Assembly (NCBI RefSeq): GCF_008806325.1
Contig: NZ_WACR01000008.1
Coordinates: 62,001 to 126,000 of the forward strand
Length of the DNA stretch: 64,000 nt
Direction of reading: 5' to 3'
From: Salibacter halophilus
Lineage (GTDB): Bacteria > Bacteroidota > Bacteroidia > Flavobacteriales_G > Salibacteraceae
Under the pieces are notes generated by a model. The model saw only the letters and a list, made by a program, of their open reading frames with translations. It was not told the origin of the DNA and searched no databases. This document shows positions 2,784 to 30,420 of the stretch, piece by piece. Positions within the stretch are counted from its first letter, which is position 1. Each line of letters starts with the position of its first letter. The translations under genes were made by a program, and so were the position numbers.

Positions 2784-3497
2784 ATGCTAAAATCAAGTAA
2801 TTCATTCAGGAAACTAAACAACAAAAGACCTTTCTTTTTTCTAATTGGTCTTATCGTTGCAACCTCTGCTTCACTCGTGGCTTTTGAGTACAGAGTAGAG
2901 GAGTTCACACCCATTGATCTTGGAGGTGTTGAAGAAACCGATATTGAAGATGTGATGATACCAATCACATACAAAACCGAAGAAGTACCGGAAATCAAAA
3001 AACCAAACAACACAAAGCCAGAACCAAAACCAGTTAAAAAGAGTCCACGGTCAGAGCCGGATCCGACCAGAGAGGTCCCCTATATTGACTTACCTGATCC
3101 CGGTACCTTTGAGTTGCCCGAAAAAACGGTGAAGGAAGGGCCCTTTGTACAGGTTGAACAAATGCCTGTATTTGGTGACTGTAATGCCAGACTCAGTGAA
3201 GATTCAAAAAGAGCCTGCACGGATAAAAATATCTTCAAATTTTTGAGTAAACACATAACTGTGCCCGAGGTAATTAAAGATATTGGTGCCAGCAGTACCG
3301 TTTACGTGAGTTTCGTGGTCAATGAAAATGGAAGTGTGAGTAATGTTGAGGTTCTCAACAAAGAGCAGGTTCATAGTTCATTAGTCAAAGAGGCTGTTAG
3401 CACAATTGAGTCAATGGAAGGCTGGAAAGCTGGTTTTCAAGGTGGAAAAGCAGTGAAGGTTCTCTACAGGATTCCAATTAAATTTACTGTGCGCTAA
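2784..3497 (+). CDS. TonB-like energy transducer, divergent second copy
   Basis: The 237-residue protein has the same plan as its upstream neighbour: membrane anchor at about residues 17-35 (PFFFLIGLIVATSASLVAF), a spacer rich in Lys, Pro and Glu (KPEPKPVKKSPRSEP) without the polyproline run, and a TonB C-terminal domain ending IPIKFTVR. Within that domain an insertion with two cysteines (GDCNAR and RACTDK, about residues 132 and 145) replaces the FPGGEEEL segment of the first copy. The cysteines could form a disulfide in the periplasm, which is inference. It may serve a different set of transporters. The gene contains a copy of the dispersed 10-mer at 3049-3058. Confidence 0.85.
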   Translation: MLKSSNSFRKLNNKRPFFFLIGLIVATSASLVAFEYRVEEFTPIDLGGVEETDIEDVMIPITYKTEEVPEIKKPNNTKPEPKPVKKSPRSEPDPTREVPYIDLPDPGTFELPEKTVKEGPFVQVEQMPVFGDCNARLSEDSKRACTDKNIFKFLSKHITVPEVIKDIGASSTVYVSFVVNENGSVSNVEVLNKEQVHSSLVKEAVSTIESMEGWKAGFQGGKAVKVLYRIPIKFTVR

Positions 3498-3512
3498 ATA
3501 AGAATCATTCTT

Positions 3513-3520
3513 ACATTTGA
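3513..3520 (+). promoter_or_regulatory. Candidate -7 element TACATTTG before deoC
   Basis: TACATTTG fits the Bacteroidota consensus TAnnTTTG, but no TTG is found at the usual upstream distance. It ends only three bases before the deoC ATG at 3524, so if it is used the message would be nearly leaderless. Low confidence. Confidence 0.3.
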
Positions 3521-21984: not shown

Positions 21985-22041
21985 AGAGGCAACCTTTTGA
22001 AATACAAACGTCTTATTTTTTTGAGAGATATAGGAGAAATT

Positions 22042-25000
22042 ATGAGAAGAATATTAGGACTTATACTTATTGTTTTTTGTGCGAACTTATCATTTGCACA
22101 AATGAACTTCTCTACTAACCCACCATATAATACTGTCAATCACTTGATCAATAATGTGTTTAGTGATGGTTCTGTTCAAATCACAAATATTGATTCTGTA
22201 GGTGTGTCATCACAATTTGGTTATTTTTCAAATGGTATGGGAGCCGTTGGTATAGATAGTGGAGTTGTTATGGCGACAGATGCTATTGGCGGATTTGGAA
22301 TATGCAATTCATGTGGTGGCCCAGCGGCACCAAATCCTCCTGCAACAGCTCCAGGTTTTCCCTGGATGGCAGGTAATCTTGTTCAAACTTCGACAAGTGT
22401 TCCTGCACTTATAGGTGAAAGTTTTACCGGTGCTCAGTCAATTAATAATCGGGCAGCCATTTCTTTTGATTTTATTCCACAACAGGATACAATGCGGTTT
22501 GAATTTGTGTTTGCATCGAGTGAGTGGGACAGTTGGCCATGTTCAATATTCAATGATGTATTTGGTTTTTATGTAGCCGGTCCTGGTATTACCGGTCCAT
22601 ACAATGCACCTCCCGGATTTGCAAATGCTCAAAATTTCGCACTAGTTCCTGGGACTAATATTCCGATAACAATATCTTCAATAACAAGTCCAACAGCTCC
22701 AGGTGGATGCTCACAATCTCATAATAGCCAGTATTATGTTAATGGTGTTGGTAATACGAGTTTAAATGCCAAAACAACTGTTTTGGAAATTGTATTTCCA
22801 GTGCAAAGGTGTCAAACTTATAATTTTACCATGGCTATAGCTAATGGTTCAGATCAGGCACTGCAGTCAGCTGTTTTCATGGCAGGGAATAGTTTTGGGA
22901 CAACTTCTCCTTTTACTGCCAGTATTGAACCTTCTTATACTGAACTAGGAGGAGATTCAGTGTTGTACGAAGGATGTGGGGGAGGAGATTTAACTTTTAC
23001 AAGAAATGATTCTGCTTTATTAGCTGATTCTATTCCTTTAATTATTTCAGGTTCTGCTATAAATGGAGTTGATTACTCAACACTTCCTGATACAGCTTAC
23101 TTTGCTCAGGGGCAAGATAGTTTGACATTGCCGTTTGATGTCTTCAATGATGGAATAATTGAAGGTGATGAAACTTTGAAAATATTCATCAACGATACTA
23201 CTGTTCAACTTGGATGTTCAAGTGTAACAGGTGATACTTTGGAGTTGATTATCAGGGATCCTGTTGATTTAAACAGAGAGTCTATTACCAATGATACAAT
23301 TATTTGTACAGATCAAAATATACCTGTCGAATTTCAACCTGATACAGGTTTGTTCCCATTGACATATCAATGGAGCAACGGAGATACGAACAGTTCATTT
23401 GTGGTCCCTTCCATTATTCAGGACACGAACTTTATCGTCACCGTGACAGATGCCTGTGGAATTGATACACTCATTGATACCGCACGAGTCATTGTCGATA
23501 ATCCGCCCACTTCTATTGAAACTCCAGGAGATACAATTGATTGTGAATCGCCAGGGGCACAGGTTAACGTGATTACTTATGATTCTATGCCAGGTTTGCA
23601 ATACAACTGGAGCACGAATCAAACTACTACAAGTTTTTATCAAAACAACCCGTACATCACGACAAACTACGTGGTTACTGTAACGCAGAATTGTGCTAAC
23701 TACTTCCTCACAGATACTTTTACATTGTTTGTCGATAATCCTCCTTTTACACTGGAAACACAGGATGACACAATCAATTGTACTGATCCACCTGTTACGA
23801 TTGGACCTGAAGTGAGTTATACAACTCCCAACTTCTCGTTCCAGTGGGGGAATGGTTCACAGGACTCTTCCATTACGGTTCAGCCAGTAAGTTCAACGAC
23901 TTATGTTGTTTCTGTAACTGATGCTTGCGGAGTTAGGACTGTAGTCGATTCAATAACTGTTTATGTAGATAATGATCCGATTATTACTTCAACTGAAAAC
24001 GAATTGATCAACTGTGTTGGCGACTCTGCTGATATGGAAATTCAAATACAAGGTGGTTATCCTCCTTACAGTGTTCAATGGAGCTCAGGTGGAACAGACT
24101 CTATCGAAACTGTTGCGGGAAATTTAGGTACGCAAACATACACGGTGAGCGTGACTGATATTTGTCAGATCGATACCGTTACAGAACAGGTGAATGTAGT
24201 TGTTCGTCAATACGAAGATCTTCAAATTGCTCCGCTACAAAATGAAACACTCCTTTGTAAAGGCGATCAATTTGAAGTTGGACCTGCTCAGGTTCTTGGT
24301 GGTTCCGGAGATAATGTCGTTTCCTGGAACAACTGGGATGATGAAACCAATCTTGCCTGGGGAGTAACAGATACGAATATTACTTTCACTGTCAGAGCCG
24401 CAGACCTCTGTAATCTGGACTCTGCTCAAACTACTGTTCGGGTTATCGTACCGGATTATGATCCAATGGATCTGACCACTACAAATGATACTTTTATTTG
24501 TCCTTCAGATGAGGTAACAATTGGAGCACTGGCTTCAGGCGGAGCTGAAAGTGAAGGGTATGAATACAGCTGGGGCAATGGCAAAACAGGGAGTCAAATC
24601 CTGGTAAGCCCAAATCAGAGTCGCACTTACTACGTAACAGCAACTGATGTATGTGGTCATAAGGCTTATGCTGAGGTTTTTGTAGAGTCATCAATTCCAA
24701 CAGCCGATTTTGATTTTGAATTCATCGATCCGTTTAACGTGATGTTCGAGAATAAATCAACACAGGCCGATTCATTCTACTGGAACTTTGGTGATGGAAA
24801 CACTGATACCTTTATCGATCCAATGCATCAGTATGAAAATGATGTTACTCATAATGTGACACTGAAAGCAATCAATCAGTATGGCTGTTTTGATACTGTT
24901 ACCAAAGAACTCAACCCACCGTTGGTTGCTTTTATACCCAATGCTTTTACACCTAATGGTGATGGTCTTAATGATGTGTTTGAGTTGAATGGTGGCGGAA

Positions 25001-25224
25001 TTCGATCAGGAGAAAGTATACAAAAATTCAGCATTGTCATTTTCGATAGATGGGGAACTGAAATATTCTCGTCAAATGATCCCAACTTTAAATGGGATGG
25101 AATAGATCAAAACAACGGTAAAAAAGTTGGAATTGGCGTTTACCCATTCAAATTGACGATTGAAGGATACGGAACACAAAAAATTGAGATGAACGGATCT
25201 ATAACAATCCCCAGCGTAGATTAG
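22042..25224 (+). CDS. Large secreted adhesin-like protein with T9SS type B (CHU_C) sorting domain
   Basis: The 1060-residue protein has a signal peptide (RRILGLILIVFCANLSFAQ) when started at the ATG at 22042; the frame is open to a TTG at 21997, but that form would put 15 residues before the signal. Domains in order: a choice-of-anchor-L-like region (about 25-285, with FEFVFASSEWDSWP), a Calx-β-like stretch (about 295-395), six Cys-containing Ig-like repeats (about 415-885), a PKD-like domain (FYWNFGDGNTDTF) and a C-terminal gliding-motility-associated domain (IPNAFTPNGDGLNDVF ... DRWGTEIF). The last domain directs export by the type IX system. Confidence 0.93.
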   Translation: MRRILGLILIVFCANLSFAQMNFSTNPPYNTVNHLINNVFSDGSVQITNIDSVGVSSQFGYFSNGMGAVGIDSGVVMATDAIGGFGICNSCGGPAAPNPPATAPGFPWMAGNLVQTSTSVPALIGESFTGAQSINNRAAISFDFIPQQDTMRFEFVFASSEWDSWPCSIFNDVFGFYVAGPGITGPYNAPPGFANAQNFALVPGTNIPITISSITSPTAPGGCSQSHNSQYYVNGVGNTSLNAKTTVLEIVFPVQRCQTYNFTMAIANGSDQALQSAVFMAGNSFGTTSPFTASIEPSYTELGGDSVLYEGCGGGDLTFTRNDSALLADSIPLIISGSAINGVDYSTLPDTAYFAQGQDSLTLPFDVFNDGIIEGDETLKIFINDTTVQLGCSSVTGDTLELIIRDPVDLNRESITNDTIICTDQNIPVEFQPDTGLFPLTYQWSNGDTNSSFVVPSIIQDTNFIVTVTDACGIDTLIDTARVIVDNPPTSIETPGDTIDCESPGAQVNVITYDSMPGLQYNWSTNQTTTSFYQNNPYITTNYVVTVTQNCANYFLTDTFTLFVDNPPFTLETQDDTINCTDPPVTIGPEVSYTTPNFSFQWGNGSQDSSITVQPVSSTTYVVSVTDACGVRTVVDSITVYVDNDPIITSTENELINCVGDSADMEIQIQGGYPPYSVQWSSGGTDSIETVAGNLGTQTYTVSVTDICQIDTVTEQVNVVVRQYEDLQIAPLQNETLLCKGDQFEVGPAQVLGGSGDNVVSWNNWDDETNLAWGVTDTNITFTVRAADLCNLDSAQTTVRVIVPDYDPMDLTTTNDTFICPSDEVTIGALASGGAESEGYEYSWGNGKTGSQILVSPNQSRTYYVTATDVCGHKAYAEVFVESSIPTADFDFEFIDPFNVMFENKSTQADSFYWNFGDGNTDTFIDPMHQYENDVTHNVTLKAINQYGCFDTVTKELNPPLVAFIPNAFTPNGDGLNDVFELNGGGIRSGESIQKFSIVIFDRWGTEIFSSNDPNFKWDGIDQNNGKKVGIGVYPFKLTIEGYGTQKIEMNGSITIPSVD
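23284..24690 (+). repeat. Six tandem Ig-like repeats within the T9SS cargo protein
   Basis: The encoded protein contains six units of about 70-85 residues. Each begins with an asn/asp-x-T-x-x-C block (NDTIIC, GDTIDC, DDTINC, NELINC, NETLLC, NDTFIC), has a central Trp strand (YQWSNG, YNWSTN, FQWGNG, VQWSSG) and ends with TVTDAC or a variant before a short hydrophobic strand. Cysteine pairs are conserved between units. DNA identity between units is low, so they are old repeats. Confidence 0.75.
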
Positions 25225-26470: not shown

Positions 26471-27193
26471 ATGCAGCTCACATTTGACATAGGAAACTCG
26501 CGTATAAAATTCGGAGTGTTTAAAGACTCTAAGCTTATTGAATCTGGGGTTGTGGAAAAGGTTTCGCAATTAGATGATTACGCCTCTAGTTGGCGTGCGG
26601 CCGGAGTTTCCAAAGGGATTTATTCAAGTGTTGGTAAGCCGGAGGTGGAAAAGGATCTGACCAATAAACTCAGTTTCATCCAGCTGATGAAACTCACTCA
26701 CGATACATCATTACCCATCAAACTCGATTATGAAACACCCAAAACTTTAGGAATTGACAGAATAGCTGTTAGTGTTGGTGGTTTTTCAGGCAATGTTGAT
26801 ACAATGGTGATTGATGCGGGGAGTTGTATCACCTACGATATTGTATCGAGGGATGGCTATTATAGAGGTGGAGCCATAACACCTGGAATAAAAATGCGAT
26901 TGAAGGCAATGCATCATTTTACTGCACGTTTACCATTATTGGATGATTTGGTTGATGTGAGTTTTCCCTCAAAGTCTACAGGTGATTGTATGCAGTTGGG
27001 AGGAGTCACCTCAGTAGAGCATGAAATGAAGGGATTTATCGCTGAGTTTAACAAGATTTATAATAATGGTCGTGTTTTACTGACAGGTGGAGACACTGTT
27101 TACTTGGCTGAAGGATTAAAAAATCACATTTTTGCTGACAATTTTTTGCAACTGAAAGGATTAAACGAAATACTGAACTATCAAAGCAAGTAA
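26471..27193 (+). CDS. coaX: Type III pantothenate kinase
   Basis: CoaX phosphorylates pantothenate in the first step of coenzyme A synthesis and is the form insensitive to feedback by CoA. The 240-residue protein has the ASKHA motifs TFDIGNSRIKFGVF (phosphate 1), GIDRIAVSVGGF, VIDAGSCITYDIV (Asp115) and GGAITPGIKMRL. It heads a run of envelope genes (outer-membrane protein, TPR protein, lptC). Its stop codon overlaps the likely start of the next gene. A dispersed 10-mer at 26653-26662 encodes KDLTN. Confidence 0.96.
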   Translation: MQLTFDIGNSRIKFGVFKDSKLIESGVVEKVSQLDDYASSWRAAGVSKGIYSSVGKPEVEKDLTNKLSFIQLMKLTHDTSLPIKLDYETPKTLGIDRIAVSVGGFSGNVDTMVIDAGSCITYDIVSRDGYYRGGAITPGIKMRLKAMHHFTARLPLLDDLVDVSFPSKSTGDCMQLGGVTSVEHEMKGFIAEFNKIYNNGRVLLTGGDTVYLAEGLKNHIFADNFLQLKGLNEILNYQSK

Positions 27194-28502
27194 ATACATA
27201 CTCCTGCTATTAGCGTTATTTGGTCTTTTTGAGGCCAGTGCCCAGTCTAAACCAAATTCCCCGTACACCATCTTTGGTTTGGGAACCCCTGTTAAGGAGG
27301 GCTTTGTGAACAATTTCGCAATGGGCGGAGTTAATCGCTACATGTTTGATAACTATATTATCAATCCTTACAACCCGGCAACATATGCTCATCTTGAATC
27401 TACAACATTCGATATGGGACTTCATTATGTGAGATTCAATACTGACGGAGAAAATGCTTCTCAAACAACAGATAATGCCGGATTACGCTATTTTGGCCTC
27501 GGTTTTCCAATCGCAGATCGCTGGGGTTGGGCAATGGGAATGGTTCCACACACTGAGGTTGGTTACGAGTTTACCCGAATTGCACAGGTTGATGGTATGA
27601 ACTCTACATCGACATATAGCGGTGAAGGAGGTCTCAATAAAGTGTATGGAGGATTGGGCTTTGAAGCAATTAAAGACACGAATACAACATTGAGTATTGG
27701 TGCTAACTTCCTTTATTTTTTCGGTCCGACCCAATCGATGACTCGTGTTTCATACGATGACGGAGGTGCAGGAACTTACTCATCAGTAATTGAAGAAGGT
27801 CTCAATGCATCTGATGTGAATTTTGATTTAGGTGTACACTTTAGACAGGATCTGACCAAAGCACTAGCCAAAAAACGATCTAAGCGAATTTATTTCAATT
27901 TTGGCGCTTCAGGAATGATGCCAACTACACTTAAAACAAGGAGAAGAACAGAGGCTTACAGCTCTTTTTCAACTCCAAAAGATTTCGTTCGTAACAGAGA
28001 AGATACAATTGGCATGACACTTCCTTTTGAAGCTGGAGGTGGCTTCTCATTTGAGTTCGTGGATATAAACAAGAAAAGCAGATTTATTTTAGGGGCTAAC
28101 TTAGAATATACAAACTGGAGTGAATTTGCAGTAGATGACAGAAATGCAGGATTAAATGATTCCTACACAGCTTCGCTTGGAATGCAATACAACCCTAATG
28201 AAAGAGCCATAAGAGGATTGTTGGAAATCATGCGCTACAGGGCTGGTTTGCGCTATACATCAACTCATATCAATCTTAATAATGAGTCAGTTACCGATTA
28301 TGGCATGAGTTTTGGACTTTCAATACCGTTGATCGCCTCAAAGTCGATTACCTCAACATCTACGACAATTAATTTAGGTGCTGAGTTCGGAATTAGAGGT
28401 GATAACGCAATTATAAGTGAGCAATACTCGAAATTTATTTTTGGAGTATCGCTAACCCCAAGTTTTTGGGACGAATGGTTTAAAAGAAAGAAAATTGATT
28501 AA
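27180..28502 (+). CDS. Outer-membrane β-barrel protein with a probable ATC start
   Basis: The mature protein (about 420 residues) has the aromatic strand pattern of an outer-membrane barrel (NPATYAHLESTTFDMGLHYV; INLGAEFGIRG near the C-terminus). A clear signal peptide, KASKYILLLLALFGLFEASAQ, lies in frame upstream of the first usual start codon. A TGA at 27174-27176 closes the frame upstream. No ATG, GTG or TTG lies before or in the signal peptide, and the best candidate is ATC at 27180, giving MKASKY. It would overlap coaX by 14 bases. A TTG at 27279 would start inside the mature protein. A dispersed 10-mer lies at 27848. Confidence 0.75.
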   Translation: MKASKYILLLLALFGLFEASAQSKPNSPYTIFGLGTPVKEGFVNNFAMGGVNRYMFDNYIINPYNPATYAHLESTTFDMGLHYVRFNTDGENASQTTDNAGLRYFGLGFPIADRWGWAMGMVPHTEVGYEFTRIAQVDGMNSTSTYSGEGGLNKVYGGLGFEAIKDTNTTLSIGANFLYFFGPTQSMTRVSYDDGGAGTYSSVIEEGLNASDVNFDLGVHFRQDLTKALAKKRSKRIYFNFGASGMMPTTLKTRRRTEAYSSFSTPKDFVRNREDTIGMTLPFEAGGGFSFEFVDINKKSRFILGANLEYTNWSEFAVDDRNAGLNDSYTASLGMQYNPNERAIRGLLEIMRYRAGLRYTSTHINLNNESVTDYGMSFGLSIPLIASKSITSTSTTINLGAEFGIRGDNAIISEQYSKFIFGVSLTPSFWDEWFKRKKID

Positions 28503-28519: not shown

Positions 28520-29836
28520 ATGAAAGGTAAGTTAATAGCAGTTGTTGTTTTAAGTTTTTTGAGTACAAGTCTTTTTGCTCAGGACGAAAAGAAATATGGT
28601 GAAACTGAGGAAGAGCAGGTAGAGTGTAAAAAGAACCTGTCTCTGTACAAGGAGTTTTATGACCAAAAAGCTTACAAAGAAGCTAAGACACCATTGATGA
28701 ATGCAATCGAAATTTGTCCTACATCGAGTAAGAATATGTACATACGTGGTGTAAATATCTATGAGCATTTCGTAGAAAAAGCTGACAAGGAAGGTATGGC
28801 TGAAATGAAAGCTGCTTATGTCGATACGCTAATGATGATTTACGATAAGCGTATTGAAGCTTTTGGTCAAAGAGGATATGTTCTGGGCCGTAAAGGAACT
28901 GATCTCTTGCGTCACGGATCTAAAGAAGATTATCAGGAAGCATATGATATTCTTACTGAAGCTTATGAGTTGAGAGGAAATGAAATGCAACCTGGTGCTT
29001 TGGCTGCCTATTATCAGTCAGCTTATCAGCTTGCGGCTCGCAAACAACTTCCGGTTGAAGATTTGTTGGCTCTTTACCCAAAACTCGATGCTGTTGTAAA
29101 AGCGAACCAGGGAGGTAAGTATGAAAAAGCATACAACTCTGCCGGAAAGCAATTGGACAAAATCTTTAGTGCAGTTGCTTCATGTGAAGATCTTGTAAAT
29201 ATATACACTCCAAAGTTTGAAGAGAACAAACAGGATACTGCTGTTCTCGAGCAAATTGTAAACCTCTTTGATAAGAAGAGCTGTACAGATGAAGAGCTTT
29301 ACCTACTCGCATCAGTTGAGTTGGATAAAATGAAACCTTCTGCTGATTCTAAATACGGAATTGGAGTGGGGTACCTCAAAAAAGAAGAGTACACTAAGGC
29401 AATTGATTATCTCAGCAAAGCGGTTGAGAAGCTAGAGGATAATGAAAAGTTACTCAAAGCTTACGAGTATATTGCTAGAGCTCAAAATAAACAGAGCAAT
29501 TATCCCGCAGCAAAGCAGGCAGCTCTTAAGATGTTGGAAATTGACGATTCAAACGGAACTGCTTACTTGCTAATAGGTGATGCTTATTTCTACGGATCAA
29601 AATCTGTTGGTGAAAATGTTTGTGAAAAAGCTGGCGGACTTTGGGCAGCTATTCCAAAATACAACAGAGCAGCTTCATTAGATCCTTCACTGAAGGAAAC
29701 TGCTGGCAAGAAAATCGGCTATGTGAAAGCGCAATTCCCAAAGAAAGAGGATTGCTTCTTCCACAACATGACTGAAGGACAGGAATACAAAGTAGGCGGA
29801 TGGATCAATGAAACAGTTTCCGTCCAGGTTAAATAA
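28520..29836 (+). CDS. TPR-repeat exported protein
   Basis: The 438-residue protein has a signal peptide (KGKLIAVVVLSFLSTSLFAQ) and mostly helical content with TPR-like units, clearest at YTKAIDYLSKAVEKLEDNEK and NYPAAKQAALKMLEIDDSN (about residues 290-355). It lies 17 bases after the outer-membrane protein gene and overlaps lptC by one base (TAATG). A scaffold role in the envelope is likely, but the partner is not known. Confidence 0.85.
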   Translation: MKGKLIAVVVLSFLSTSLFAQDEKKYGETEEEQVECKKNLSLYKEFYDQKAYKEAKTPLMNAIEICPTSSKNMYIRGVNIYEHFVEKADKEGMAEMKAAYVDTLMMIYDKRIEAFGQRGYVLGRKGTDLLRHGSKEDYQEAYDILTEAYELRGNEMQPGALAAYYQSAYQLAARKQLPVEDLLALYPKLDAVVKANQGGKYEKAYNSAGKQLDKIFSAVASCEDLVNIYTPKFEENKQDTAVLEQIVNLFDKKSCTDEELYLLASVELDKMKPSADSKYGIGVGYLKKEEYTKAIDYLSKAVEKLEDNEKLLKAYEYIARAQNKQSNYPAAKQAALKMLEIDDSNGTAYLLIGDAYFYGSKSVGENVCEKAGGLWAAIPKYNRAASLDPSLKETAGKKIGYVKAQFPKKEDCFFHNMTEGQEYKVGGWINETVSVQVK

Positions 29837-30420
29837 TGAAAACTTCACGATCACATTTATTTTTAAGCATCCTCATTATTATGATGGGGATGCTTTTTTC
29901 ATGTGAAAACAGCAAGAAAGACCTTGAAACTATCAAGTTTGATGATAGTTTTCCTAATGAAATAACACGTGATGTAACAATTTTTTACAGTGATTCTGCC
30001 AAAGTTCAGGTAATGCTCAAAGCACCACTAATTGAGCGTTACTACAGAGAAGAAGATTCCTATGCCGAGTTTAATAAAGGAGTGTATGTGGAATTTTATG
30101 ATGATAGTGGAAAGGTAGAGTCCACAATCGAAAGCGAATACGCCAAGCACTATAACGAGCGAGGTGAAATGTTAGCTCGAAATGATGTGGTCGTTGTCAA
30201 TAAAAAAGGAGAAAAGCTGAATACTGAACATCTAGAATGGAATCAAAATACTCATCAAATCAGGTCTAACTCATTTGTCAAGATCACAACAAAAGATGAG
30301 ATTATTTATGGCAATGGACTGGAAGCCAATGAAGATTTTACTCGTTATAAAGTAAAAGATATCAAAGGGATCATTGAAGTTGACCAAAATGAAATGAAGA
30401 AAGATGAAGACGTACAATAA
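29836..30420 (+). CDS. lptC: LPS export protein LptC
   Basis: LptC links the LptB2FG transporter to the periplasmic LPS bridge. The 194-residue protein has a lipoprotein signal peptide (lipobox MLFSC, Cys23) instead of the transmembrane anchor of the proteobacterial protein, which is usual in Bacteroidota. The body has the β-jellyroll strand pattern of the family (VQVMLKAPLIERYYRE, MLARNDVVVVNKKGEKLNTEHL, VKITTKDEIIYGNGLEA). The coaX-barrel-TPR-lptC order supports the call. Confidence 0.9.
   Translation: MKTSRSHLFLSILIIMMGMLFSCENSKKDLETIKFDDSFPNEITRDVTIFYSDSAKVQVMLKAPLIERYYREEDSYAEFNKGVYVEFYDDSGKVESTIESEYAKHYNERGEMLARNDVVVVNKKGEKLNTEHLEWNQNTHQIRSNSFVKITTKDEIIYGNGLEANEDFTRYKVKDIKGIIEVDQNEMKKDEDVQ

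Follow-up and report, generated by a model that had tools for sequence, protein, structure and literature searches.

A probable ATC start codon, nested in the end of coaX, for the outer-membrane assembly gene bamG of Salibacter halophilus

Analysis of a 64,000 nt stretch of the Salibacter halophilus genome (hereafter the window; contig NZ_WACR01000008.1) indicates that the gene bamG is probably translated from an ATC codon at 27180, by the ordinary initiator fMet-tRNA and most likely with ribosomes supplied by the overlapping gene coaX (Table 1); from the sequence comparisons below, we assign this reading a probability of about 0.8. The occurrence of ATC at the same place in relatives of two other genera looks like a kept feature and not like a sequencing slip. 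Near-cognate start codons are already known; what seems new is the gene concerned, the absence of a Shine-Dalgarno sequence, the nesting within coaX and the distribution across several genera.

Table 1. Features bearing on the proposed start of bamG (window positions, except for infC).
Feature	Position	Strand	Basis and remarks
coaX, type III pantothenate kinase	26471–27193	+	Pfam PF03309, 120 bits (cut-off 24.7); TIGR00671, 121 bits (cut-off 58.2)
TGA stop	27174–27176	+	Closes the bamG frame on its 5′ side; sequence and translation
ATC, proposed start codon of bamG	27180–27182	+	Overlaps the end of coaX, stop included, by 14 bases; no in-frame ATG, GTG or TTG between 27177 and 27279; ATC at the same overlap in L006, L007 and L008
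Predicted signal peptide MKASKYILLLLALFGLFEASA, 21 residues	27180–27242	+	Proposed cleavage between A and Q, by eye; translation; BamG profile match begins at residue 21; length check
bamG, outer-membrane beta-barrel subunit of the Bacteroidota BAM complex, 440 aa	27180–28502	+	NF053685; single copy
infC of the window genome (L032)	G000, contig C4, about 3311–3514	−	Relatives: L150–L178

The sequence and its translation show that the bamG frame is open from 27177 to 28502, and the codons following the TGA are ACT (27177), ATC (27180), AAA GCA AGT AAA TAC ATA CTC CTG CTA TTA GCG. When the ATC is read as Met, the product begins with MKASKYILLLLALFGLFEASA followed by Q, a textbook exported N-terminus. 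The earliest in-frame ATG, GTG or TTG is TTG 27279 (residue 34), beyond the signal peptide, and initiation there would lose not only this peptide but also S27, P28 and G33, all of them invariant in a 10-sequence alignment. The end of coaX reads AAC TAT CAA AGC AAG TAA, with its stop at 27191–27193, and the bamG start lies inside TAT CAA AGC AAG TAA. Direct reading and the coordinates bear out the original prediction, which had described a frame closed by the stop at 27174–27176, a signal peptide in frame upstream of the first standard start, the lack of ATG, GTG or TTG before or within that peptide, and a 14-base overlap of the ATC with coaX. A preference for TAT over TAC in the tail of coaX was considered and set aside as too weak, TAT accounting for 1445 of the 3214 Tyr codons in the long ORFs of our genome sample (see below).

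Bacteroidota ribosomes are reported not to recognise Shine-Dalgarno sequences, and the determinants of initiation described for Bacteroidia are A at positions −3, −6, −12 and −13, weak structure and a surrounding region free of AUG (PMC9976891). No GGAGG-like run was found in attaaacgaaatactgaact, 5′ of the bamG ATC, nor any ATG, in any frame, from −80 to +121 around it, and from the favoured adenines it has those at −3 and −12 only. Folding of the start region was dropped as a discriminator, since the minimum free energies of the four loci with ATC at this position (−3.2 to −5.6; see below) fall inside the 10–90% range of 88 ATG-start loci (−9.95 to −2.27).

The gene had been predicted to encode an outer-membrane protein, and it can now be named: its product matches the NCBIfam equivalog profile for BamG, NF053685, with 283.3 bits (cut-off 250) over profile positions 1–397 of 397, while a search of the protein against Pfam gave no match. 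BamG is an outer-membrane subunit of the BAM complex, described as conserved across Bacteroidota and essential in F. johnsoniae (PMC12611786). The gene is present in 41 of 42 genomes of the order, and a search for both bamG and coaX in the genome G020 matched neither; as belongs to the family, it is here a core gene of Bacteroidota with an export signal, the signal peptide being judged by eye. There is one match in its own genome. Because BamG is conserved, essential in F. johnsoniae and encoded here by one copy, bamG has to be translated with its signal peptide.

The start-less coding stretch of bamG also stands out within the genome. We sampled 464 kb (the window together with 400 kb from contigs C1 and C3), taking ORFs of at least 150 codons and applying a codon-usage filter, which 341 ORFs passed; in 32 of these the first standard start lay at least 20 codons past the preceding stop. 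The summed codon score in the start-less stretch was highest for bamG (5.9, the next being 4.7), for which reason we consider this stretch more than chance.

For comparison among relatives we gathered 110 bamG loci from the genomes searched and from genomes of named species, further searches yielding no additional ones; of these, seven were repeats of the same genomes, leaving 103 distinct loci, including one, L004, without a readable N-terminus; bamG matches returned without a locus were left out of the reading. Three loci have no standard start at least 17 codons before the SPYS motif: that of the window genome and L007 and L008, which belong to another genus, show 33–36% protein identity to the window BamG and include, in L008, a one-contig assembly. 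In L006 (the same as L034, from UBA10426, a third genus) the frame is open, with an ATG 73 codons and a GTG 40 codons before the motif; neither yields a normal signal peptide by eye, which makes them look implausible, though still conceivable, as starts of bamG in L006, and its ATC yields MRTFKYFIFYISVIFPLLAEGQ. Four genomes belonging to three genera (window, L006, L007 and L008) share an ATC whose overlap with coaX, counted to the last base of the stop, is exactly 14 bases. In contrast, L003, from the same genus as the window, has an ATG at overlap 14, followed by ATC AAA, and L005 (the same as L033, from UBA6049, one further genus) has TTG AAT before ATC AAG, with an overlap of 32. A look at the codon in related strains had been proposed as a check on the prediction; the comparison with these relatives favours a rare start.

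The eight rows of the clade that holds these genera (see the tree below) comprise three with no standard start and one each with ATG (L003), TTG (L005), a GTG far upstream (L006), an unreadable end (L004) and an ATG within an apparent adapter (L009). Outside the clade, every one of the 95 distinct loci shows a standard start (88 ATG, five TTG and two GTG), 17–45 codons before the SPYS motif. ATC at overlap 14 also occurs there, in five of 73 in-frame loci, where it derives from the tail of coaX and a standard start is present; this weakens what would otherwise be a strong positional argument. Likewise, the four clade cases of ATC are not independent, owing to shared ancestry. Between −80 and +121, three of these four loci (window, L006 and L007) are free of ATG in all frames, and L008 has three ATGs; among ATG-start loci, no further ATG was present in the same interval in 9 of 89 (Fisher P of about 0.006, with relatedness not corrected).

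In the genomes G001 and G021 the contig breaks off at the bamG start, and both are uninformative. The first 40 bases of the bamG strand in L009, at the end of contig 266 of G021, create a false upstream GTG/ATG next to the signal peptide; this contig end looks like transposon adapter sequence that has become attached to the signal-peptide region of bamG.

A maximum-likelihood tree built on BamG and CoaX together, with 33 of the 103 loci, grouped the genera holding the window, L003, L005, L006 and L007–L009 in one clade (ultrafast bootstrap 98), which splits into the window's genus plus L005 (support 84) and L006 plus L007–L009 (support 100). Since ATC-only loci are found on both sides of this split, the shorter account is that ATC was the ancestral bamG start of the clade and that ATG and TTG were gained later, as judged by parsimony from reading the tree and not by a computed reconstruction.

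The overlap of the two genes is conserved: among the 96 loci with a standard start 17–45 codons ahead of the SPYS motif and with coaX no more than 400 bases away, 79 have a bamG start that overlaps coaX, most commonly by 8 bases (in 24 loci) or by 14 (in 15). From this conservation we infer that translation of bamG is coupled to that of coaX. One option left by the original prediction had been a rare start codon tying translation of the gene to coaX; the rare start is the part that the relatives favour, and the conserved overlap is the only evidence for the tie. The arrangement resembles published cases of termination-reinitiation in the closeness of the downstream start to the preceding stop, a matter of bases, and in the recurrence of the overlap among relatives; the abstracts on such cases, by contrast, describe short overlaps (such as ATGA or TGATG) and standard start codons. 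Because no Shine-Dalgarno run precedes the ATC, ribosomes terminating at the coaX stop would be the most likely source of initiation at bamG. As suggested by the positions, on leaving coaX they would have to step back only about eight bases to bring AUC into the P site, where the initiator fMet-tRNA would read it as a near-cognate start codon and where no stronger start, in particular no nearby AUG, would compete. With so weak a codon, little BamG would be made for the amount of its mRNA, and initiation could be sensitive to IF3, by analogy with infC and sigR (see below).

Initiation at near-cognate codons seems native to this lineage, because infC also lacks a standard start here and in relatives. 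In the window genome there is no ATG, GTG or TTG before the conserved core of infC, where the sequence reads GGAGG ACTTAGTC ATA AGA AGA; this gene, on contig C4, lies outside the 464-kb sample. We found infC in 40 of 42 genomes searched and read 30 loci: 22, including the window's own and from relatives up to the class, have no standard start, and the other eight have TTG or GTG. A Shine-Dalgarno-like run precedes a near-cognate codon in 14 of the 22. The pattern in this genome and its relatives of the order and class is often an AUH start (ATA, ATT or ATC) plus a GGAGG-type run, in the very phylum reported not to use such runs; ribosomes without bS21 may favour infC of this type, as proposed for rpsU. 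The genome has 35 tRNA genes, of which 30 loci were read with ARAGORN; three have CAU anticodons and one GAU. One of the CAU tRNAs (L136) has the C1-A72 mismatch expected of the initiator tRNA. A special initiator with an Ile anticodon was considered and rejected, as the one GAU tRNA among these 30 of 35 loci has paired ends and does not look initiator-like.

Starts of this kind are known for infC in other bacteria, with ATT in Escherichia coli and ATC in Streptomyces, where they are associated with autoregulation by IF3 (PMC5472188), and AUA in S. aureus (PMC13009471). Both infC and bamG would be chromosomal housekeeping genes with a near-cognate AUH start; however, the infC genes without a standard start that we read mostly have a Shine-Dalgarno-like run before them, whereas bamG has none, starts inside the preceding gene and encodes an outer-membrane assembly subunit. 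The sigR gene of Streptomyces, with a GTC start repressed by IF3, is similar in having a rare start that is conserved across species and overlooked by automatic annotation (PMC5472188), but it differs in codon, gene and phylum, and was proven by mutation and blot, while bamG is known from sequence. Conserved non-canonical starts have also been described in S. aureus for cvfC1 (AUU) and ccpN (AUA), with a reporter output of about 10–30% of that of AUG; unlike bamG, they depend on extended Shine-Dalgarno motifs (PMC13009471).

The other half of the original prediction, that an ATG had mutated or been miscalled, is disfavoured. The ATG of L003, in the same genus and at the same overlap position, speaks for the loss of an ordinary start from this genome alone, whether through recent mutation or through a fault in sequencing or assembly; nevertheless, L007 and L008, from another genus, also lack standard starts, the latter in a one-contig assembly, and an identical error in the four assemblies with ATC at the same overlap is hard to credit. 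Additionally, the window assembly is 99.97% complete with 0.11% contamination, and we regard this explanation as very unlikely. We also think it improbable that initiation takes place at another near-cognate codon. ATA 27198 and CTG 27204 are in frame, and in L007 and L008 the overlap-14 ATC is preceded by runs of ATC/ATT, which could serve in its stead; yet a start at ATA 27198 or CTG 27204 would give a signal peptide without a basic n-region, and of the six clade loci whose 5′ end can be read, five have a Lys or Arg codon after the ATC and L008 has one for Glu. Least credible of all is that ribosomes shift by +1 as they reach the end of coaX and so make a CoaX-BamG fusion: the bamG frame is indeed +1 to coaX at the overlap and the coaX of L006 ends in CTT TAA G, which recalls the prfB shift site, but the coaX genes of the other ATC loci end in AAG TAA, GCC TAG and GCA TAA, with no common shift motif by eye, and in such a fusion the signal peptide would lie buried internally, after 240 residues of a cytoplasmic enzyme.

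A further explanation accepts initiation at the ATC and refines it, so that its odds overlap with those of the preferred reading: the codon would be merely tolerated, because coupling brings enough ribosomes, and there would be no regulation through IF3. That one member of the same genus uses ATG and another genus a TTG two codons upstream, so that the state is not strictly fixed, speaks for tolerance, while the presence of ATC on both branches of a deep clade and the absence of ATG nearby in three of the four loci speak against it; we give it a little less than an even chance. The ATG and TTG users within the clade also tell against a strict dependence on the weak codon. It is a tentative proposal, and one we hold to be on the doubtful side, that in a clade of Flavobacteriales BamG is made only from an AUC without a Shine-Dalgarno sequence, nested in coaX, and that its supply is set jointly by translation of coaX and by the fidelity of IF3; control of bamG by IF3 would follow by analogy with the genes mentioned above. 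If true, this would constitute a control point, without a Shine-Dalgarno sequence, that links assembly of the envelope both with the condition of the translation machinery and with a gene of the coenzyme A pathway.

Experimentally characterised non-canonical starts are described as rare (PMC5472188). No report on bamG was found in the titles and abstracts of a limited collection of literature on AUC, ATC, AUU and noncanonical starts, including Bacteroidetes and IF3, and the words "start codon" are absent from the main text of the BamG paper (PMC12611786). Translation of bamG from the ATC would place an AUC start without a Shine-Dalgarno sequence on an essential gene in several genera, allowing a direct test of what permits the choice of codon: coupling, the lack of a competing AUG, or a low stringency of IF3. 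For annotation, a gene caller limited to ATG, GTG and TTG, such as produced the ORF list used here, places the start of this BamG at TTG 27279, cutting off the signal peptide.

Genes found 3′ of bamG encode a TPR-like protein (below Pfam's cut-off), LptC, a CorC/GldE-like protein and a SurA/PpiD-like isomerase. The TPR-like gene (28520–29836) and lptC (29836–30420) overlap by one base, and tight packing goes on 3′ in the cluster. Elsewhere in the window, 21997–25224 encodes a large, apparently secreted protein, with a C-terminus that we take, by eye, to resemble a sorting region of the gliding-motility type; the TTG given as its start by the ORF list seems to lie too far upstream, and its likely signal peptide opens with an ATG (MRRILGLILIVFC).
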